Positions 4,259 to 15,981 are shown, counted from the stretch's first letter. The stretch is DNA of 64,000 nucleotides from a virus (IMGVR_UViG_3300030098_006179:82773-146772); one strand, 5' to 3'. Program-made: numbers and translations. The notes: generated by a model from the sequence alone, not told the origin.

Positions 4259-6139
4259 TTATTCTTTTGAAATTTTGTAAAAGTTTTTATTGTCAAAGAA
4301 AGAAGAGCTATACACCACCTTGAAATAGTCCGTAGCATTAACTAAATTTTTCAACCAATTCATATCATCCATCTCGTTTGAAAATGGAATAACTTTATGA
4401 ACATTTTCATTACTGTGAAAAAGGTCTTGATTTTCGTTTTGACAGGCTACATAAACATCATGATCTTTATAATCGTCTTTTATAGACTTTAATAAACTAG
4501 TTGAAATTAATGATCCTCTACCACTCTTGGGGGCAATAAATAAAATTCTATTTTCATTTTCACTCAAAACGTCTTGCATTTTTACCGTTCTGCTCTCTGA
4601 GTTTTCTTTGATCGCAACTTGCCTAAAATAATTTTCAATACTTTTTCTGTCTGAACCTTTGGATAGCTCTGTCATCCAATATCTATGCCCTTCATCATCA
4701 TCCAGAACATTTTCTCTTTTTAGAATTTTTTCATACAAGCAGGTTATCCATTTCGCGTTATCCTCTACTTGTGGTATTTCTGCATTTGGGTCTTTTTTTA
4801 TGTTTTCAAAATTAAAATCATAATTAGTATAATCGCAAGAATCTATGAAATCTTCTAAAAATTTTCCAACTGTATTTTTTGAAAAGTTTTTAATTGTCCA
4901 TTCTCTAGCCCTTTTGCCAAGCTCTTGCTTCTCTGAATCGCTCATTTCTAAAACTTTTGATAATTGTTTTTGAATTGATTTTGGACACGTGGAAGCTTTT
5001 TTGAATTCTGTATTATGTTCTCTGTATTCAGACCATTCTAGAGGTAGTGAGCAAGCTTCTTCTTCGCACATTTCTTCTCCGCAGGAATAGTTTGTGACCA
5101 AGGTTATTAGCTCTGCAAGTTTTGCTTCTTGTATTGGAATTTCTTGACCACCGCTTGTGAATGGGTGACAATATACATCCATAACATTATATACCTCATT
5201 AAGTTCTTTTTCGGAAACGCCTAAATTGATACTAGTTGTATGAACCCCGTCCTTTTTACCACAGTTAGAACAGGGCGCGCCTTGCCCTTTAAAAACTCTT
5301 ATTGTGTAGTCTCCACAAGCGTCACATTTATGAGTTGTTAATATATCTGAATGATCAACTCCATATTCGTCTGCAAGCTTATGAATATTCCAACCTTCAG
5401 AAAAATTAGTGTGAAGTAATAATTTTAAATTTTTATTTGTTTGTTGTTTTTTTAATAAAGAAAATCCTTCAAGTAGATTGGGTACAGATTTTCTAAGTTG
5501 GTTTCTAAAAACAAAACCTATAACAAAATCGTTAGGAGTTAAGCCAGCCTTGCTTCTTAAAAGCATTCTTTGATTATGGTCAAGCTTGTAAAAAAACTTT
5601 TCATCTAATGCTCCATGTAAGGTCTTTACATTTTCTAGACCTTGTTTTTTCATATCTTTTTCTGCAAAATTACTCCATACCCAAAAGTTATCAACTTTTT
5701 TAGCAGCATTAATAGCCGTCGGTAAAATTGGAAGTGAATCAAGTGTTGTCCAAAGGGCTGATTCTATTTTGTTAAACCAAGGTCTAGGTATAGCAAAATC
5801 TATTCCCCATATATCTTGGACGGCAATATAAACATCAGGCTTAAATTCTTTTACAACCTGATCAAGAAGATGGCTTCCGTATGCTGCCATTCTAGCTACC
5901 TGTGGGTCTCTAGAAAGCTCTTCCATTTGTCTTTCGTCTGATGGTAAAGTGCCAACAGATTTCCAAGGAGTTCTTTTTAAGGCTGGATTACTTTGAGGTA
6001 TTCCACAGCAGTAATGTAGTATTTCGTATTTGTTTGTAGAATACAAATAAGATAGAACCGCTCTGGCATTTCTACCAAAGCCTGTTTTGGCCAAAGAGAA
6101 ATCGCTTTGAAACAATAATTTTTTCTTTTTTTCCGCCAT
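4259..6139 (-). CDS. GT4 glycosyltransferase with zinc ribbon, DUF4214-like and partial GT9 regions
   Basis: The ATG at 6139 overlaps the upstream stop (TAATG) and gives 626 residues; a TTG at 6145 is less likely. Residues 1-430 look like a GT-B retaining glycosyltransferase, with an N-terminal QSDFSLAKTGFGRNAR segment and a donor-site GGQEIPIQEA segment. Inserted before that site is a four-cysteine zinc-ribbon-like loop (CDAC about residue 272, CSNC about 290). Residues about 455-505 (ITCLYEKILKRE... HRYWMTEL) resemble DUF4214, a module found near glycosyltransferases. The last 100 residues (RILFIAPKSGRGSLISTSLL) look like the N-terminal Rossmann half of a GT9 enzyme, whose second half is the next gene in another frame. 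Acceptor and donor are unknown. Confidence 0.75.
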   Translation of the reverse strand: MAEKKKKLLFQSDFSLAKTGFGRNARAVLSYLYSTNKYEILHYCCGIPQSNPALKRTPWKSVGTLPSDERQMEELSRDPQVARMAAYGSHLLDQVVKEFKPDVYIAVQDIWGIDFAIPRPWFNKIESALWTTLDSLPILPTAINAAKKVDNFWVWSNFAEKDMKKQGLENVKTLHGALDEKFFYKLDHNQRMLLRSKAGLTPNDFVIGFVFRNQLRKSVPNLLEGFSLLKKQQTNKNLKLLLHTNFSEGWNIHKLADEYGVDHSDILTTHKCDACGDYTIRVFKGQGAPCSNCGKKDGVHTTSINLGVSEKELNEVYNVMDVYCHPFTSGGQEIPIQEAKLAELITLVTNYSCGEEMCEEEACSLPLEWSEYREHNTEFKKASTCPKSIQKQLSKVLEMSDSEKQELGKRAREWTIKNFSKNTVGKFLEDFIDSCDYTNYDFNFENIKKDPNAEIPQVEDNAKWITCLYEKILKRENVLDDDEGHRYWMTELSKGSDRKSIENYFRQVAIKENSESRTVKMQDVLSENENRILFIAPKSGRGSLISTSLLKSIKDDYKDHDVYVACQNENQDLFHSNENVHKVIPFSNEMDDMNWLKNLVNATDYFKVVYSSSFFDNKNFYKISKE

Positions 6140-6651
6140 TACCAACTGTCAAATGATTCAGTTTCTTTGGTTTGTGTTTCTCCATCTTCCTTGGGGGTAT
6201 AGAATGAAAATGAAGAATCTAAAGCTTTCATAAGATACTGTTTCAACAGCCTAGCTTCTCCAAAAGTAAATCCAATGATGAAAGAAGTTTTATCAGTAGA
6301 GTCCTCTTTGTTTTCTTTATTTACCGCATAAGAAAAACCCACCTGTTTTCCTTCTCTTTCATATACTCCAAATTTGATTTTAGTAATTTGGTTTTTGCTT
6401 GAGTGGTACGCGCTAAACTCTCGGTTTGATTCAATGGAATCAAGAATTCCTCCTACTTCACCGGCACTTAATTTTACAATAACGTTCTTGTCTGGAATTT
6501 TTTTATTTTTGACAAATGAACCCTGTCGCTTGGAAGAGTCCCAAGATGCCTGTTTGATCATTGATGAGAAGAAGGCCTTCTCGTTTGTGTTGTACCAAAA
6601 AGAACAGGCTGTTCCGGTTACTTTTGCATTTGGTTTATAAAAATGTATCAT
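6139..6651 (-). CDS. Candidate single-stranded DNA-binding protein
   Basis: A 170-residue protein with a beta-rich N-terminal body and an acidic C-terminal tail ending in FDSW, the charge pattern of many phage and bacterial SSBs whose tail recruits partners. The N-terminal MIHFYKPNAKVTGTACSFW and the GGILDSIE / YHSSKNQIT segments recall small phage proteins described as PC4- or Whirly-like ssDNA binders. That assignment is from memory of sequence style, not a search. It is next to the polymerase gene and has its own promoter and an AGGA ribosome-binding site 8 nt before ATG. Its stop overlaps the start of the glycosyltransferase downstream. Confidence 0.5.
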   Translation of the reverse strand: MIHFYKPNAKVTGTACSFWYNTNEKAFFSSMIKQASWDSSKRQGSFVKNKKIPDKNVIVKLSAGEVGGILDSIESNREFSAYHSSKNQITKIKFGVYEREGKQVGFSYAVNKENKEDSTDKTSFIIGFTFGEARLLKQYLMKALDSSFSFYTPKEDGETQTKETESFDSW

Positions 6652-6668: not shown

Positions 6669-6697
6669 ATATTAAGTTTTTTTTGGGTGATTGTCAA
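6669..6697 (-). promoter_or_regulatory. Sigma-70-type promoter for the SSB-like gene
   Basis: Minus strand: TTGACA (6692-6697), 17-nt spacer with an A8 run, TAATAT (6669-6674). The -35 overlaps the 3' end of the polymerase gene. Unlike several other promoters in the window, this one leaves a short leader carrying an AAGGA ribosome-binding site before the ATG at 6651. Confidence 0.65.
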
Positions 6698-9264
6698 GCT
6701 TTCTTTAGCTCTGATAATTTGGTATATACTTTATTATCTTGGACTGTAATGATGTCTGCAAATACCGCGTCATCCATTTTTCTCCCTTTTACAAAAACAA
6801 TCTCGTTCTCTTTGGGGAGTCCGTTGTTTGAAAATTTACATTCATCAATTTTATCATTAAAAATTAAAACATTCATTGATCCGTGTTCGTCGGAACAGTT
6901 TACTTTGAAATACTTTGTCTTTTTTGCACTTCTGGAAACTCCAGAAATTGGTTTGCCGTCAATAGTTGAGACAAACGCAACGTAATTTCCCGCTGGTGTT
7001 TCTGAAACTTGTCTTAGATTAATTAGATTATCAACATTTGAGCTAAAAATGTCTTGCAGGGTTTTGCCATAAGTATATCCCAGCAAACTTTTTTCATAAT
7101 ACCAGTTAGCAAAACTTTCAGATTTTCTGTTTATCTCATAAATCTCTTTATATTTTTCACACTTTCTTCTGATCGTTTGCATTCTGGAATCTTTAATAAA
7201 GACTTTACCTTTTTCGTCTTTTGTGGTATTTAATTTTTTAATTAAAGATACAAGATCATAATTATTTTCTTTCCCAACTTTTAGTGCCATTACCTTTTCT
7301 CTTGGAGTCAAAAGGTTCCACAACTGAGCTTCGTAAACCACCTTGGTTCTTGATTGCTTAAAGTCTTCTTCTAATGCTCCCGCTTGAATCAAGGCGCACA
7401 ATATACCAACGTTAAGTCCAGACTCATTGGCAGACTCAAATACCTCAAATTTATTTGAGAACGTATTTCTAAAATTATTTAACTTGTCTATTGATTTTTC
7501 AGATATACCTTTGATTGAAAGTAGTCCAAATCGGATATTGTTACCTTCAATTGAAAAGTCTAAAGAAGACTTTATGAGGTGAGGCGGCAATAATTTAATT
7601 TTAAAATAATCCAACTCTTTTTGAATCTTAGATATTTCAGCAATAGGATCTGGCTCAAACCTAGTCATTTTCAAAAGAGACAAGAAAAACTCTTTTGGAT
7701 GTTTAAATTTAAGATAGGTAGTTGCTGCGGCAAGAGCAGCGTAAGCAATAGAGTGGCTTTTATTAAATGAGTAATTCGCTGAGTCCTCAAGAATTTGCCA
7801 AAGAACATCGCCAATCTTTGGGTCAAGATTGTTTTCTTTTACTTTGTCTTTGATTTTCTTTTTCCATTTTCTAACTTCGCTCACCTTCTTTTTGCCAACA
7901 ATGCGTCTTAAAATTTCCGCTTCATCAAGAGTGAATCCAATTTTATTTGCCATCTTCATTAATTGCTCTTGATACAATGCAACTCCACCCGTTTGCTTTA
8001 AGATGTCGTCAAAGAAAGAGTGGATTGGCTCGTATACCTCATGTCTTGTATACAGGGCGTATTTATTTAAAAAGCTGAGTGCCCCGGGTCTAGCAATAGC
8101 TAAAACGGCACTGAGTTGCTCTAAATTTTGTGGCCTCACTCTTTGACATACTCTAAAGTTTGTATCAGCCTCAATTTGAAAAAGACCGTGGGGAGTTTTT
8201 AAATTTTGTAATTGTTGATATATAAATGGTTCATTTAAATTTATATCATTAATAGAAATACCAATACTTTTACAAGCGTCTTCAACAACAGAAACACTTC
8301 TAAGTCCAAGAATGTCAAGTTTTACATTGGACATTGATACCCAATTCATATCAAAAGAAGTTACAGAATTCTTTTGGGAATCTAGTTCTGTCGGACAGTT
8401 TTCATTAAGTTTGCCGTGAGAAATTGCAATAGCTGAAGGGTGAACGCCTTTGTTTTTTGCAAGACCCCTAAGCTTTAAAGCGGTTTTATATATGCTCGTG
8501 TTTTTATCACTCCACTTTCTAAAACTTTCTGACTCTTCATACGCTGATTCAATGTCTTTAATAATGCCATGAACTTTTGGGATGTATGATGTAACCTCAT
8601 TCATCTCTGTTTCACTTTTTTCTTTAATAATTTTTCCACACTCTTTAATTAATAATTTAGTATTAAGAGTGTTAAATGTAAGAATCTTTGAAGTCTTACC
8701 TTTGAATTTTCTTTCAAGATATTCTAGGACTTTCTTTCTGTTGTAATAACAGACATCAATATCAACATCACACATCAATGAACCGTCAAGATATGTTATT
8801 CCATCAACCTCCTGTTTCTTTGCTCGGATTTTAGATACAAACCTCTCAAAATAAAGATCATGTTTAACTGGATCAATTCCGGTTGCTCCAATTAAATACA
8901 ATGTAAGGCTTCCAGCGGCAGAGCCGCGTCCAAGTCCAATTGGGATATCGTTTCTTTTACAAAAGTTAATTACATCCCACACAAGTAAAATATAATCAAC
9001 AAACCCTAATTCTCTAAGTGTTGTAATTTCGTACTTAGCCCTTTCTCTGTAAAGTTGATGATCCTTGGCTGGTATATTATTTTTAATTTTATTAAAACCA
9101 GTTCTCATTAAAGCTTTGAGAAAGTCTATGTTGCTAACGTCGGTCTTTACTCCCGCTTCTTTTTTATACTTCTCTTCAATTTTAAAAGAGGGCAATCTTA
9201 CCCCATGTAATGGGATATCTAATTTTTTAAAATCTTTTATAAAATTTACAGTTCTATCATGCAT
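6694..9264 (-). CDS. dnaE: DNA polymerase III alpha, catalytic part without PHP domain
   Basis: An 856-residue C-family polymerase core. GLGRGSAAGS (110-119) is the conserved palm motif. The metal-binding aspartates are D166, D168 and D170 in CDVDIDV, and the third catalytic Asp is D317 in VKLDILGL. Further family segments are HGLFQIEAD, the fingers motif ADEAEILRR-like LDEAEILRRIVGKKK, and SFNKSHSIAYA. A helix-hairpin-helix-like GLLSIKGISEKS and an OB-fold C-terminal region (about 745-840) follow. The sequence begins at the LPSFKI segment that normally comes just after the PHP domain; the PHP domain is a separate gene at 10221-10985. The start overlaps the exonuclease gene by 19 nt. It would synthesise phage DNA with DnaB and the nearby DnaQ-like exonuclease. 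Confidence 0.93.
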   Translation of the reverse strand: MHDRTVNFIKDFKKLDIPLHGVRLPSFKIEEKYKKEAGVKTDVSNIDFLKALMRTGFNKIKNNIPAKDHQLYRERAKYEITTLRELGFVDYILLVWDVINFCKRNDIPIGLGRGSAAGSLTLYLIGATGIDPVKHDLYFERFVSKIRAKKQEVDGITYLDGSLMCDVDIDVCYYNRKKVLEYLERKFKGKTSKILTFNTLNTKLLIKECGKIIKEKSETEMNEVTSYIPKVHGIIKDIESAYEESESFRKWSDKNTSIYKTALKLRGLAKNKGVHPSAIAISHGKLNENCPTELDSQKNSVTSFDMNWVSMSNVKLDILGLRSVSVVEDACKSIGISINDINLNEPFIYQQLQNLKTPHGLFQIEADTNFRVCQRVRPQNLEQLSAVLAIARPGALSFLNKYALYTRHEVYEPIHSFFDDILKQTGGVALYQEQLMKMANKIGFTLDEAEILRRIVGKKKVSEVRKWKKKIKDKVKENNLDPKIGDVLWQILEDSANYSFNKSHSIAYAALAAATTYLKFKHPKEFFLSLLKMTRFEPDPIAEISKIQKELDYFKIKLLPPHLIKSSLDFSIEGNNIRFGLLSIKGISEKSIDKLNNFRNTFSNKFEVFESANESGLNVGILCALIQAGALEEDFKQSRTKVVYEAQLWNLLTPREKVMALKVGKENNYDLVSLIKKLNTTKDEKGKVFIKDSRMQTIRRKCEKYKEIYEINRKSESFANWYYEKSLLGYTYGKTLQDIFSSNVDNLINLRQVSETPAGNYVAFVSTIDGKPISGVSRSAKKTKYFKVNCSDEHGSMNVLIFNDKIDECKFSNNGLPKENEIVFVKGRKMDDAVFADIITVQDNKVYTKLSELKKA

Positions 9265-9884
9265 TTTAATTTATTCCATACTTTAAGGTTCAATTCAAGG
9301 TCATATAAAGCCTCATGTAGCTTATCTGGGTCAAAATCTATCTCAAATTCCTCTCCCAAGGCCTTCAGATTCGTTCTAACGCCTCTTTTGTGGGTGTGCA
9401 GTACTTTGTACTGATAGAGAAGAAAGTCCTCTCTGGGGCTAAATTTGAAGCCGTATTTGACACCCTTGGCAACACAGTTGGTATCAATGATTTTTGGCAA
9501 TAAGTGCTTGTAATCGGCACCCATATAATTGTAATAATCTTTAAGGAGGTAGATGTCAAATCCAAGGATATTATGTCCAATGATATAGTCTGCATTATCA
9601 AGCCACTCCTGCATTATTGGAAATAGTTTCTTGGCATCTTTTGCTCTTTCTTTGTAGGTGTCGTAATTAAAATGAGTGATTCGCGCCGCATCTTTGCTAA
9701 CGTCAATATCTCTATTCCAAGTTAACCAAAGGTCTTGTTCGTCAATTTTGTTTTCTCCTTTGGCTTTTATCATGCCAATCTGCCAAGGCAAGTTATTCAT
9801 TGAGTGAAGGCAAAGGTTTTCTGTCTCGCAATCAATAAGAACATAATTGGTGTCTTTTTTAAATCTTAATAAATGGTCATCCAT
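9246..9884 (-). CDS. DnaQ-like DEDDh 3'-5' exonuclease (proofreading)
   Basis: A 212-residue exonuclease. Exo I is LIDCETEN (D18, E20), Exo II is IIGHNILGFD, and Exo III is the HEALYDLELN stretch with the HxxxxD spacing of the DEDDh class. It lies between the two polymerase pieces, overlapping the catalytic gene by 19 nt and sharing TAATG with the cupin gene. It is therefore very likely the epsilon-like proofreading subunit. Length matches stand-alone epsilon catalytic domains; no beta-clamp motif or extra domain was noticed. Confidence 0.88.
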   Translation of the reverse strand: MDDHLLRFKKDTNYVLIDCETENLCLHSMNNLPWQIGMIKAKGENKIDEQDLWLTWNRDIDVSKDAARITHFNYDTYKERAKDAKKLFPIMQEWLDNADYIIGHNILGFDIYLLKDYYNYMGADYKHLLPKIIDTNCVAKGVKYGFKFSPREDFLLYQYKVLHTHKRGVRTNLKALGEEFEIDFDPDKLHEALYDLELNLKVWNKLKCMIEL

Positions 9885-10231
9885 TATCGTTTAATCCTTT
9901 TGCTGTCTGAGTCTTTGTGGAACGTGCTTATTTCAATAAATTCTACGTCTCCATCGTATGCAATCAATTGATGCGGTTGCCCTCTATCTATTTCAAATGT
10001 ACATCCTTCTAGTACCATATGGTGGCGCTCTTTACCCTGCTCTGTATCTATTAATATAACTTGTAGTGTTCCGTCTGTAACGTAAAAAGTTTCGTGCTTC
10101 TCCATGTGAAAATGCATGGAAGAAGTATGTCCTTGGTTTATGTGTAGAATTTTACCGCAGTAATTTTCTTTTTCGTTATTAGCTAACCAGATTTCGTGGC
10201 CCCACTCTTTTTCTACAAATTTAGCTTTCAT
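9884..10231 (-). CDS. Small cupin, sugar-phosphate isomerase-like
   Basis: The ATG at 10231 has a GGAAAG ribosome-binding site and gives 115 residues; the frame remains open to 10267 inside the PHP gene. It is one cupin barrel with the two metal-binding motifs clearly visible: GHTSSMHFHMEKHETFYV (motif 1, His/His/Glu) and CTFEIDRGQPHQL (motif 2). The pattern is like the cupin domain of mannose-6-phosphate isomerase/GDP-mannose pyrophosphorylase and of phage mannose isomerase-like cupins. Supplying mannose phosphate for the GDP-mannose to GDP-fucose route encoded nearby is a reasonable inference. Its position between polymerase pieces is odd for a sugar enzyme. Confidence 0.65.
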   Translation of the reverse strand: MKAKFVEKEWGHEIWLANNEKENYCGKILHINQGHTSSMHFHMEKHETFYVTDGTLQVILIDTEQGKERHHMVLEGCTFEIDRGQPHQLIAYDGDVEFIEISTFHKDSDSKRIKR

Positions 10232-10985
10232 TTTTTTCTTTCCAGTTTTCAAAACAAAATGTATCACTGCACATGTGTTCTAAGTTTGGTTTGTTAAGAG
10301 TTGTTCGCTTGCTAATGCACCTAAATGTTAGGTATGCTTTAAAATCTTCTTTGTTTTTATAAAACACGCTTTGGCTTTCAACTAATGGATAATCGTTTCC
10401 GTCGTTTGTAAATTCTAAGACTGACTTTTTGATCAATTCATCAAATGGCAGATTGTTATCTTCAATAAAAAATGCAACATCATTTACAAATTCAAATTCA
10501 GGAATGCAACTTTTCCCTTGTAAAATATTTTTAAAAATAAATGAATCATAAAAAGGTACGCACAGTTTAAGATTTTTAGTCCATAAACTTTGAAGATGTT
10601 TGAAGTCTATTCTTGGTTCATAATAGAAGCCCTCCTTGGCTGCTAAATCATTAATCTTGATAAGGTCTTTATAACCTTGAGAGTTTTTAATAAAAATTAC
10701 ATACTTGCAATTTGTAGAAAGAGACTCCTCGTCTTTAGTTAGCATGTCTGCGCAGACCGTAAGACGTAACCCGTACATTAATTTTAAATTATTTTCTTTT
10801 GAGTTTTTATAAGCCTCAAGAAATCCACCCATTGAATCTTCAACTAAAAAGAATTCGTTAAGTTTATTTTTTCTACATATATCAATAATAGAATCTGGAG
10901 CCACTTTATCTCCATTATCTTCATTAGATAATGTTAAAATACTTTTTCCTAAAGAGTAGTGACTTTTAAAAAGTGGAATTATCAT
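10221..10985 (-). CDS. DNA polymerase III alpha PHP domain as a separate protein
   Basis: A 254-residue protein matching the N-terminal PHP region of DnaE-type polymerases. It starts with PLFKSHYSLGKSILTL, the equivalent of the HSDYS segment, continues with FFLVEDSMGGFLEAYKNS in place of the LTDHGNxxG segment, then LKLMYGLRLTV where DnaE has IKPIIGxE. Several metal-binding positions are changed: the first His of the HxH pair is Lys, and the DH pair after LT is lost. The domain is therefore probably not a nuclease, as in E. coli DnaE. It ends near FCFENWKEK, where intact DnaE continues into the catalytic region encoded at 6694-9264. No intein sequence is seen at either edge, so the halves probably associate without covalent joining. 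Confidence 0.8.
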   Translation of the reverse strand: MIIPLFKSHYSLGKSILTLSNEDNGDKVAPDSIIDICRKNKLNEFFLVEDSMGGFLEAYKNSKENNLKLMYGLRLTVCADMLTKDEESLSTNCKYVIFIKNSQGYKDLIKINDLAAKEGFYYEPRIDFKHLQSLWTKNLKLCVPFYDSFIFKNILQGKSCIPEFEFVNDVAFFIEDNNLPFDELIKKSVLEFTNDGNDYPLVESQSVFYKNKEDFKAYLTFRCISKRTTLNKPNLEHMCSDTFCFENWKEKNES

Positions 10986-10997
10986 ATCGTTGACTTA

Positions 10998-11026
10998 ACA
11001 ATAACCGCTTTATGCAAGCGAGTCAA
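10998..11026 (-). promoter_or_regulatory. Promoter of the split-polymerase block
   Basis: Minus strand: TTGACT (11021-11026), 17-nt spacer, TATTGT (10998-11003), with the PHP gene ATG 12 nt further on. The spacer holds a 5-bp stem (CGCTT/AAGCG), a possible operator. The -35 overlaps the stop codon of the upstream glycosyltransferase gene. The -10 is weak. Confidence 0.45.
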
Positions 11027-11760
11027 GAATAAAAATGTTTAAACTGATGCACCATTGGTGCAAAAACTAATCTGTGTTCGTTTTCTGGGTGGTATATTTC
11101 TACAACTTGATCCCAGTCTTTAATTTCGTACCCATTTATAAAAAATAAAAAACTCATAAAAGCATCTAAAGCTCTTAATTCAAGGAAAGTATTTTTAGGA
11201 CAGTTGTCTAAAGCGTATTGTATTTTTTCTTCAATGTCTGTTTTGAGTATTTTTTTTAAAATATCTCTATTGTATATCATCGGCGCGCTAAAAACATATT
11301 TATCTTTTAATGGTAATTTTTTTTCTTTTCTGTACTTGTTTATTGTTTGAGTCTCAAAAGGTTCAAATGTATTAAAGTCGTGAATATTGCCTCCAGCCGC
11401 AAAATTTTCTTCGGGTACATTTTCAATATGGTTTCTGATTACAATGTCGGGTTCAAGATAAACCAACCATTTGCTTTCACATAAATCGCAGACCGTATTT
11501 AATTGATTTAATAAAATTTTAAAATCTTCTAAATCTGACATTAAAACGTATTTGCTTTCAGGGGTTATCTTTTGATAATTAATTGGCTCGTAAAAATATT
11601 GACAGTCATATTTGTGGCATATAGATTCAAGCTGATTAGATCCGCTTTCAAAGACAATAATTTTATTGTTATAAAATTTACGCACACTTCTCAAGCAGAA
11701 CTCTGTAGCTTTAGGAAGCTTGTGAGCAAGCATAAAGAATGAAATATCACTAGAATTCAA
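11023..11760 (-). CDS. Glycosyltransferase, GT-A (GT2-like)
   Basis: A 245-residue protein with the opening beta strand ISFFMLAHK and a central metal-site motif WLVYLEPDIVI, as in GT-A glycosyltransferases. A later acidic segment around LRALDAFMSFL could supply the base. The only start that keeps the first strand is TTG at 11760, overlapping the upstream nuclease gene by 11 nt; an ATG at 11733 would remove it. No membrane anchor. The gene sits between the nuclease and the polymerase operon, which shows how glycan genes are interspersed among replication genes. Donor and acceptor cannot be told. Confidence 0.65.
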   Translation of the reverse strand: MNSSDISFFMLAHKLPKATEFCLRSVRKFYNNKIIVFESGSNQLESICHKYDCQYFYEPINYQKITPESKYVLMSDLEDFKILLNQLNTVCDLCESKWLVYLEPDIVIRNHIENVPEENFAAGGNIHDFNTFEPFETQTINKYRKEKKLPLKDKYVFSAPMIYNRDILKKILKTDIEEKIQYALDNCPKNTFLELRALDAFMSFLFFINGYEIKDWDQVVEIYHPENEHRLVFAPMVHQFKHFYS

Positions 11761-15564: not shown

Positions 15565-15981
15565 TTATAAAATAATATCAAACTCTTTTTTAAACCATTC
15601 TTTGCTTAGTTTATCTACTTCATTTTGTTCTATTTCTACTATTAAAAAATTATTTAATTCTAGCCATTCTCTTTTTTTAACGTCTCGTTTTATTGATTCA
15701 AGATAGTTGGCTCTTGAGTTATTGTGGAAAAATTTATTAAATTTATTATGTTGAGTGCCATTGACTTCTATGGCTATTCTTTTGGTAGCGTTAATGAAGT
15801 CTACCTTTAGTTTTGTGCCATATACGGGGAATTCTTCATAAACAATATGGTTTTGCCAATAAGATTTAAGAAACTGTTTGGTTTTGAACTGTATTTTAGA
15901 TTTGGATTTATCATCCCAATCTATAAGGTATTTGCTAACCTTTCTACTTTGGAGCTTTCCATATACATTGTATAACCTCAT
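15565..15981 (-). CDS. Small PD-(D/E)XK endonuclease-like protein
   Basis: A 138-residue protein whose centre reads TKLKVDFINATKRIAIEVNG followed by TQH: an Asp, then Glu-Val-Asn in a beta strand, then a Gln-His, the pattern of Vsr/DUF559-type PD-(D/E)XK nucleases. A later KREWLELNNFLIVEIEQNE fits their final strand. The start overlaps the recA stop as ATGA. In a recombination operon it may resolve junctions or nick DNA, but substrate and activity are unknown. Confidence 0.65.
   Translation of the reverse strand: MRLYNVYGKLQSRKVSKYLIDWDDKSKSKIQFKTKQFLKSYWQNHIVYEEFPVYGTKLKVDFINATKRIAIEVNGTQHNKFNKFFHNNSRANYLESIKRDVKKREWLELNNFLIVEIEQNEVDKLSKEWFKKEFDIIL

Follow-up and report, generated by a model that had tools for sequence, protein, structure and literature searches.

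A conserved phage gene module with a DnaE-type DNA polymerase, its PHP domain and a DnaQ-like exonuclease in separate genes

The PHP domain is strictly present in the replicative polymerases of bacteria, the loss of its metal site accompanies the presence of a separate exonuclease, and even when inactive it still governs the stability and activity of Escherichia coli DNA polymerase III (Pol III) (Barros et al., PMC3666897). In the E. coli core of DnaE1 and DnaQ, proofreading is performed by a separate DEDDh exonuclease, epsilon, which binds the PHP domain (PMC3642679, PMC3919608), with the fragments spanning residues 1-270 and 1-285 of the latter binding fully (Toste Rego et al., PMC3642679). 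Here we describe a group of viral genes, found in a 64,000-nucleotide stretch of DNA (IMGVR_UViG_3300030098_006179:82773-146772; "the window" refers to the whole of this stretch), in which a stand-alone PHP protein, an epsilon-type exonuclease (EXO) and the catalytic part of a DnaE (POL) are encoded by three separate genes. This module resembles the E. coli core in its intact Asp triad, inactive PHP domain and separate DEDDh exonuclease as the presumptive proofreader, and differs from it in that PHP and POL are separate genes with the EXO gene between them, EXO is tail-less and POL ends after the OB domain. It also recalls PolC, the replicase of Gram-positive bacteria, in which PHP, a DnaQ-type exonuclease and the polymerase likewise occur together, with the polymerase last; however, PolC is one chain with the exonuclease inside the PHP domain, an N-terminal OB domain and a PHP metal site that is often intact.

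Among viruses, the closest polymerases are the DnaE proteins of phages with a fused PHP domain (phrog_405: Perkons, MTATph1, Daubenski, Sundance and GBK1; jumbo phage group 3.2), at 27-33% identity, and Perkons additionally shares the helicase-primase-PD(D/E)XK-polymerase gene order with the window phage. These proteins differ in that the PHP domain is in the chain and most or all metal ligands are kept, and no relative of EXO was detected in their neighborhood. Pseudomonas phage PB1 is comparable in having an exonuclease gene directly 5' of a DnaE-like polymerase that has lost most of its PHP metal ligands, but there the PHP domain is still fused, in a polymerase of 1035 amino acids. Distribution of phage Pol III alpha over separate genes has been described in jumbo phage group 2.2 (Iyer et al. 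2021, PMC7824862), where it is the catalytic module itself that is divided over genes lying far apart; further Pol III domains, and hence PHP, are missing, and a family B polymerase is present (PMC7824862). The window phage falls outside that group: its catalytic module is whole, PHP is present and its record has no match to PF00136. The structural role of PHP, the binding of epsilon to PHP and phage Pol III split in other ways are therefore already published, and a separate PHP gene followed by an exonuclease ahead of the polymerase is not described in the open-access papers searched. What appears to be new, within the open literature searched, is a fixed PHP-EXO-POL architecture made of known components.

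Division of one DnaE between two genes

The four open reading frames (ORFs) that a preliminary description of this DNA had delineated were recovered at the same positions, all on the minus strand. The features of the module are:

10221-10985, minus strand: PHP gene, 254 amino acids; PHP domain of a DnaE-type Pol III alpha as a protein in its own right, with all nine metal ligands replaced
9884-10231, minus strand: cupin gene with an ATG start (9884-10267 with a GTG start), between PHP and EXO; an accessory insertion
9246-9884, minus strand: EXO gene, 212 amino acids; epsilon/DnaQ-like DEDDh 3'-5' exonuclease
6694-9264, minus strand: POL gene, 856 amino acids; DnaE catalytic part without PHP, comprising palm, thumb, fingers, HhH and OB
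8761-8769, minus strand: POL catalytic aspartates D166 and D168 (E. coli D401 and D403), by alignment
8314-8316, minus strand: POL catalytic aspartate D317 (E. coli D555), by alignment
9246-9264, minus strand: overlap of the EXO end with the POL start, 19 nucleotides

Translation of the cupin gene more probably begins at the ATG at 10231 than at the GTG at 10267.

The PHP gene encodes the PHP domain of a DnaE and nothing more, with the remainder of that DnaE being encoded by POL. The PHP protein matches the Pfam model PF02811 (E=4e-9), and the two proteins match complementary parts of the same profiles, so that together they tile one DnaE: the PHP protein covers positions 62-289 of phrog_405 and POL positions 309-1082 (E=3e-152), the respective segments being 41-242 and 268-1022 in TIGR00594, and 45-247 and 274-1048 in PRK05673. 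In the alignment the C-terminus of the PHP protein corresponds approximately to residue 249 of E. coli DnaE and residue 21 of POL to residue 275, while the start of POL, extrapolated because MAFFT scattered its first 20 residues, falls at about residue 255. The cut thus lies near residues 249-255, just inside the 1-270 PHP boundary used in PMC3642679. This bears out the proposal of the preliminary description that a DnaE had been split at the boundary of its PHP and catalytic parts to yield a stand-alone PHP gene. Within POL the Pfam domains PF07733, PF17657 and PF14579 are followed by a weak OB match at 780-828, which is the order typical of DnaE; its C-terminus lies near residue 1094 of E. 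coli DnaE, and the catalytic triad D166/D168/D317 is invariant in 18 of 18 aligned polymerases. Judged by its sequence, POL is a DnaE-type member of the C family in its Asp triad and domain order, but not in having an N-terminal PHP domain in the same chain.

These features also bear on the origin of the module. It is conceivable that the three genes descend from one ancestral PHP-EXO-POL chain similar to PolC that was later broken, with the complex keeping a PolC-like placement of the exonuclease. Such an origin would agree with the resemblance of the gene order to the domains of PolC, whose PHP domain harbors the exonuclease (PMC3919608), and with the direct adjacency or overlap of all three genes in a subset of the relatives described below. 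We nevertheless regard it as improbable, given that POL has the DnaE order with a C-terminal OB domain and matches DnaE rather than PolC models, that a fused relative was not found, and that the exonuclease comes after the PHP domain and not inside it.

To characterize the PHP protein structurally, a model was obtained with AlphaFold2 from 31 family members, and it proved confident (predicted local distance difference test score 84.7; predicted template modeling score (pTM) 0.83). It matches residues 6-262 of the Taq DnaE chain over its whole length (Z 20.6, 235 residues, 3.4 Å), whereas free PHP enzymes reach Z <=12 in the same structural aligner. A Foldseek search with the model returned E. 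coli DnaE at 5e-12, and the top 23 PDB matches were all C-family polymerases bar one free PHP phosphoesterase. A check of the fold had been set beforehand as the test on which the PHP assignment could fail, and a non-PHP fold was not obtained.

The reading of the intervening gene as a DnaQ-like exonuclease likewise held. EXO hits epsilon models at the sequence level (PRK06310, E=3e-13), and its portion of an AlphaFold2 model of a PHP-EXO chain, a natural in-frame read-through of PHP-stop-EXO at locus L064, aligns with residues 5-180 of E. coli epsilon (2gui) at Z 19.0. Its DEDDh residues are D18, E20, D110, H190 and D195, each kept in at least 233 of 234 distinct proteins. An EXO profile found no match at 1e-5 among the sequences of solved structures, the assignment resting on the fold instead; a six-frame search of the phage record with PF00929 missed EXO while hmmscan of the EXO protein matched, which reflects the limit of that loose first search.

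The metal site of PHP domains follows the nine-residue motif HHDHEH[C/H]DH (PMC12926913). This site is required only for the nuclease activity of PHP. The preliminary description had considered its residues to be partly lost; in fact they are wholly lost, with 0 of 9 retained in the window protein. The same is true of 182 of 228 distinct PHP proteins, and the other 46 have at most one ligand, at a poorly aligned position. Specific replacements are themselves strongly conserved, namely Arg for the Glu (212/228), Lys for one of the His residues (226/228) and Phe for the Cys (228/228). Median ratios of nonsynonymous to synonymous substitution rates for independent pairs are 0.049 for PHP, 0.035 for EXO and 0.027 for POL, which places PHP under strong purifying selection. 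In conjunction with the lost metal site, this low ratio indicates that PHP is a selected protein without a catalytic site, and hence that proofreading, if any, falls to EXO.

Conservation of the three-gene order

A first scan of IMG/VR recovered 80 relatives, of which 77 had the PHP-EXO-POL order and three had EXO-POL or POL alone. Further scans with divergent members and with PHP as queries, and of bacterial and archaeal genome assemblies, brought the set to 335 loci; the relatives from these assemblies lie on contigs of metagenome-assembled genomes and are probably phage contigs that were binned with various hosts. All three genes are present in 312 loci, and in every one of these they are separate ORFs on one strand in the order PHP-EXO-POL, with no PHP-POL or other fusion among them, a constancy that far exceeds what chance would give; 239 of the 312 have distinct polymerase DNA. 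Of the remaining 23 loci, L162 lies outside the family and most others run out at the contig end. A search with PHP only, seeking loci that lack the polymerase, gave 566 relatives, and the best 80, which were kept, were all within the module save where contigs end. The gene-order survey of relatives that had been proposed as a check thus showed the arrangement to be strictly kept, extending to the deepest relatives, whose polymerases are 44-54% identical. Among the cultured phages of INPHARED there is no polymerase above ~33% identity, which suggests that the lineage is uncultured, so far as this collection shows.

In a quick tree with long outgroup branches, one branch (Shimodaira-Hasegawa-like approximate likelihood ratio test support 99) separates 40 representatives of the split form from the fused phage DnaE proteins and that of E. 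coli. To our knowledge the other C-family polymerases keep PHP in the chain. Given the one separating branch and the in-chain PHP elsewhere, the simplest reading is that the split arose once, at the base of the lineage.

The spacing of the genes is more labile than their order. Among the 239 distinct loci PHP directly adjoins EXO in 115 and EXO adjoins POL in 115; in 60, deep branches included, the three genes are contiguous, which makes the insertion of cargo between them appear secondary. The cupin gene is a case in point: it is indeed present between PHP and EXO in the window, as noted in the preliminary description, but it occupies this slot in just 14 of 80 relatives, the others having different genes there or none, and we rejected it as a part of the module. 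Between EXO and POL, around 59 of the 80 relatives from the first scan encode a protein family of 71-109 amino acids (e.g. L003:2062-2263), though it is absent from the window phage record; it is possibly a small accessory subunit.

Interrupted polymerase genes are not without precedent, and one could therefore attribute the split to a mobile element (a homing endonuclease, an intron or an intein) or to a sequencing frameshift, with the functional product still being one chain. The DnaE of KLEB27-3 contains an HNH gene, a homing endonuclease of phage G adjoins a DnaE of 765 amino acids, and DnaE is in two pieces in phiT1, in two pieces near the catalytic site in phiST and subject to a frame change in vB_BpsS-140. 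Unlike in the window, however, the PHP or N-terminal region of the interrupted DnaE stays with part of the palm in KLEB27-3, phiT1 and phiST. Furthermore, the intervening gene in our module is an exonuclease with an active site intact in 234 distinct proteins, and the frames, spacing and extra genes vary from locus to locus, with none of the 312 being fused. In light of these variable junctions and the conserved exonuclease, an intein, intron or frameshift was rejected as the general cause, and the probability of this explanation is close to nil.

Two of these phages display peculiarities of their own. In Bacillus phage vB_BpsS-140 (L085:4749-8365) unannotated DnaE ORFs for PHP and the polymerase overlap in different frames, reflecting a frameshift error, a programmed frameshift or a second split. 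In Cellulophaga phage phiST (L171:41629-45229) DnaE consists of ORFs of 525 and 673 amino acids that meet just before the catalytic PDIDTDF motif and carry extra residues on both sides of the junction, perhaps representing a split intein.

A likely replicase in three pieces

Taken together, it is very likely that the three genes specify a replicative Pol III core in which alpha is split at the PHP/palm boundary, PHP is structural and EXO performs proofreading; this core interpretation, including a probably structural PHP, is supported in that it survived the tests of fold and gene order. The inactive PHP, the epsilon-type EXO and the PHP-less catalytic part fit the findings of Barros et al. 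and Toste Rego et al. The 162-kb phage record (G000) has one DnaE match and no match to a family A or B polymerase (including PF00136), and it encodes a clamp-loader-like ATPase (phrog_168, L164:4723-5670). This combination implies that the module is probably the replicase of the phage.

As to how the parts might work, the sequences suggest a three-piece physical assembly, in which PHP would bind POL non-covalently to restore the normal shape of DnaE. PHP would then have a structural role and offer a platform for docking, with EXO, held near the reassembled PHP-POL, being the proofreader. The E. coli PHP fragment ending at residue 255 is insoluble, and that ending at residue 270 is well behaved (PMC3642679); given that the phage PHP stops at about residue 249, POL may contribute the missing part of that fold with its first ~15-20 residues, the two chains being joined by complementation. 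Adjacent or overlapping genes would favor matched synthesis of the three parts.

Certain observations temper this interpretation. The phage record may be partial, in which case a second polymerase is possible. EXO aligns only with residues 5-180 of epsilon and ends before the C-terminal tail, which starts after residue 180 and in E. coli contacts both PHP and the clamp, so any contact made by EXO must differ from that of its E. coli counterpart. The model of the read-through PHP-EXO chain reached a pTM of 0.67, an ambiguous value that speaks neither for nor against docking. Finally, the gap between PHP and EXO exceeds 300 nucleotides, with one or more extra genes, in 118 of the 239 distinct loci, which means that strict co-translation is unnecessary.

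The last of these points, along with the strongly conserved Arg, Lys and Phe that stand in place of metal ligands, would also suit a scenario in which PHP, once split off, parted from the polymerase and took up a new job through its conserved basic pseudo-active site, as a regulator, an adaptor for the clamp or the single-stranded DNA-binding protein (SSB), or a binder of host proteins, with POL and EXO acting independently; the association of PHP with POL is, after all, inferred. Against this stand the co-occurrence of PHP with EXO and POL in the same order in all 312 three-gene loci, its whole-length match to the PHP domain of DnaE ending where POL starts, and the strict presence in bacterial replicases of PHP, which stabilizes Pol III (PMC3666897). 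We accordingly consider a departure of PHP from the polymerase to be unlikely.

Returning to a PHP that remains part of the polymerase, we tentatively entertain a more specific possibility, itself rather doubtful, in which PHP would be an exchangeable subunit that binds the tail-less EXO and docks with it on POL by fold complementation with the first ~20 residues of the latter, while R74, K94 and F145, the conserved basic and aromatic residues now standing at the former metal site, would constitute a new interface or switch. Were this true, the recruitment of proofreading would be controlled by a detachable subunit, unlike in any described C-family polymerase known to us.

Neighboring genes and implications of the split

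The 19-nucleotide overlap of EXO and POL is consistent with translational coupling, and in relatives with no inserted gene at this junction a short overlap is mostly seen. Promoter-like sites in the window are at the level of shuffled sequence (50 versus 51.1) and give no signal of a single transcript; the one transcript envisaged in the preliminary description would be in keeping with the co-directional, overlapping or abutting genes in the window.

Directly 3' of POL, a protein of 170 amino acids (6139-6651, minus strand) is kept in nearly all relatives; it had no match in Pfam or PHROG, but its acidic tail ends in ESFDSW, resembling the tails of SSBs, making it a candidate phage SSB. Between the nuclease and PHP genes lies a glycosyltransferase-like ORF (11023-11760, minus strand) without a family match, which was seen only in near-identical copies of the window phage, a further sign that the junctions of the module take up cargo. 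A 138-amino-acid endonuclease-like protein (15565-15981, minus strand; phrog_9084, homing endonuclease), whose gene is flanked by those for the UvsX-like protein and the helicase, is kept at 52-67% identity across many relatives, and is thus unusually stable for a homing gene. The same phage record as the window also encodes an RNA polymerase sigma factor (phrog_351, L169:13316-14134).

The module represents a third arrangement of PHP, exonuclease and polymerase, beside DnaE with epsilon and PolC, and the split replicase marks an abundant, large and uncultured lineage of aquatic phages. The role of a retained but inactive PHP has so far been hard to test because the domain lies within the same chain as the polymerase. 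A separate PHP protein lets its roles in stability, catalysis and the recruitment of the exonuclease be probed by omission or swapping.

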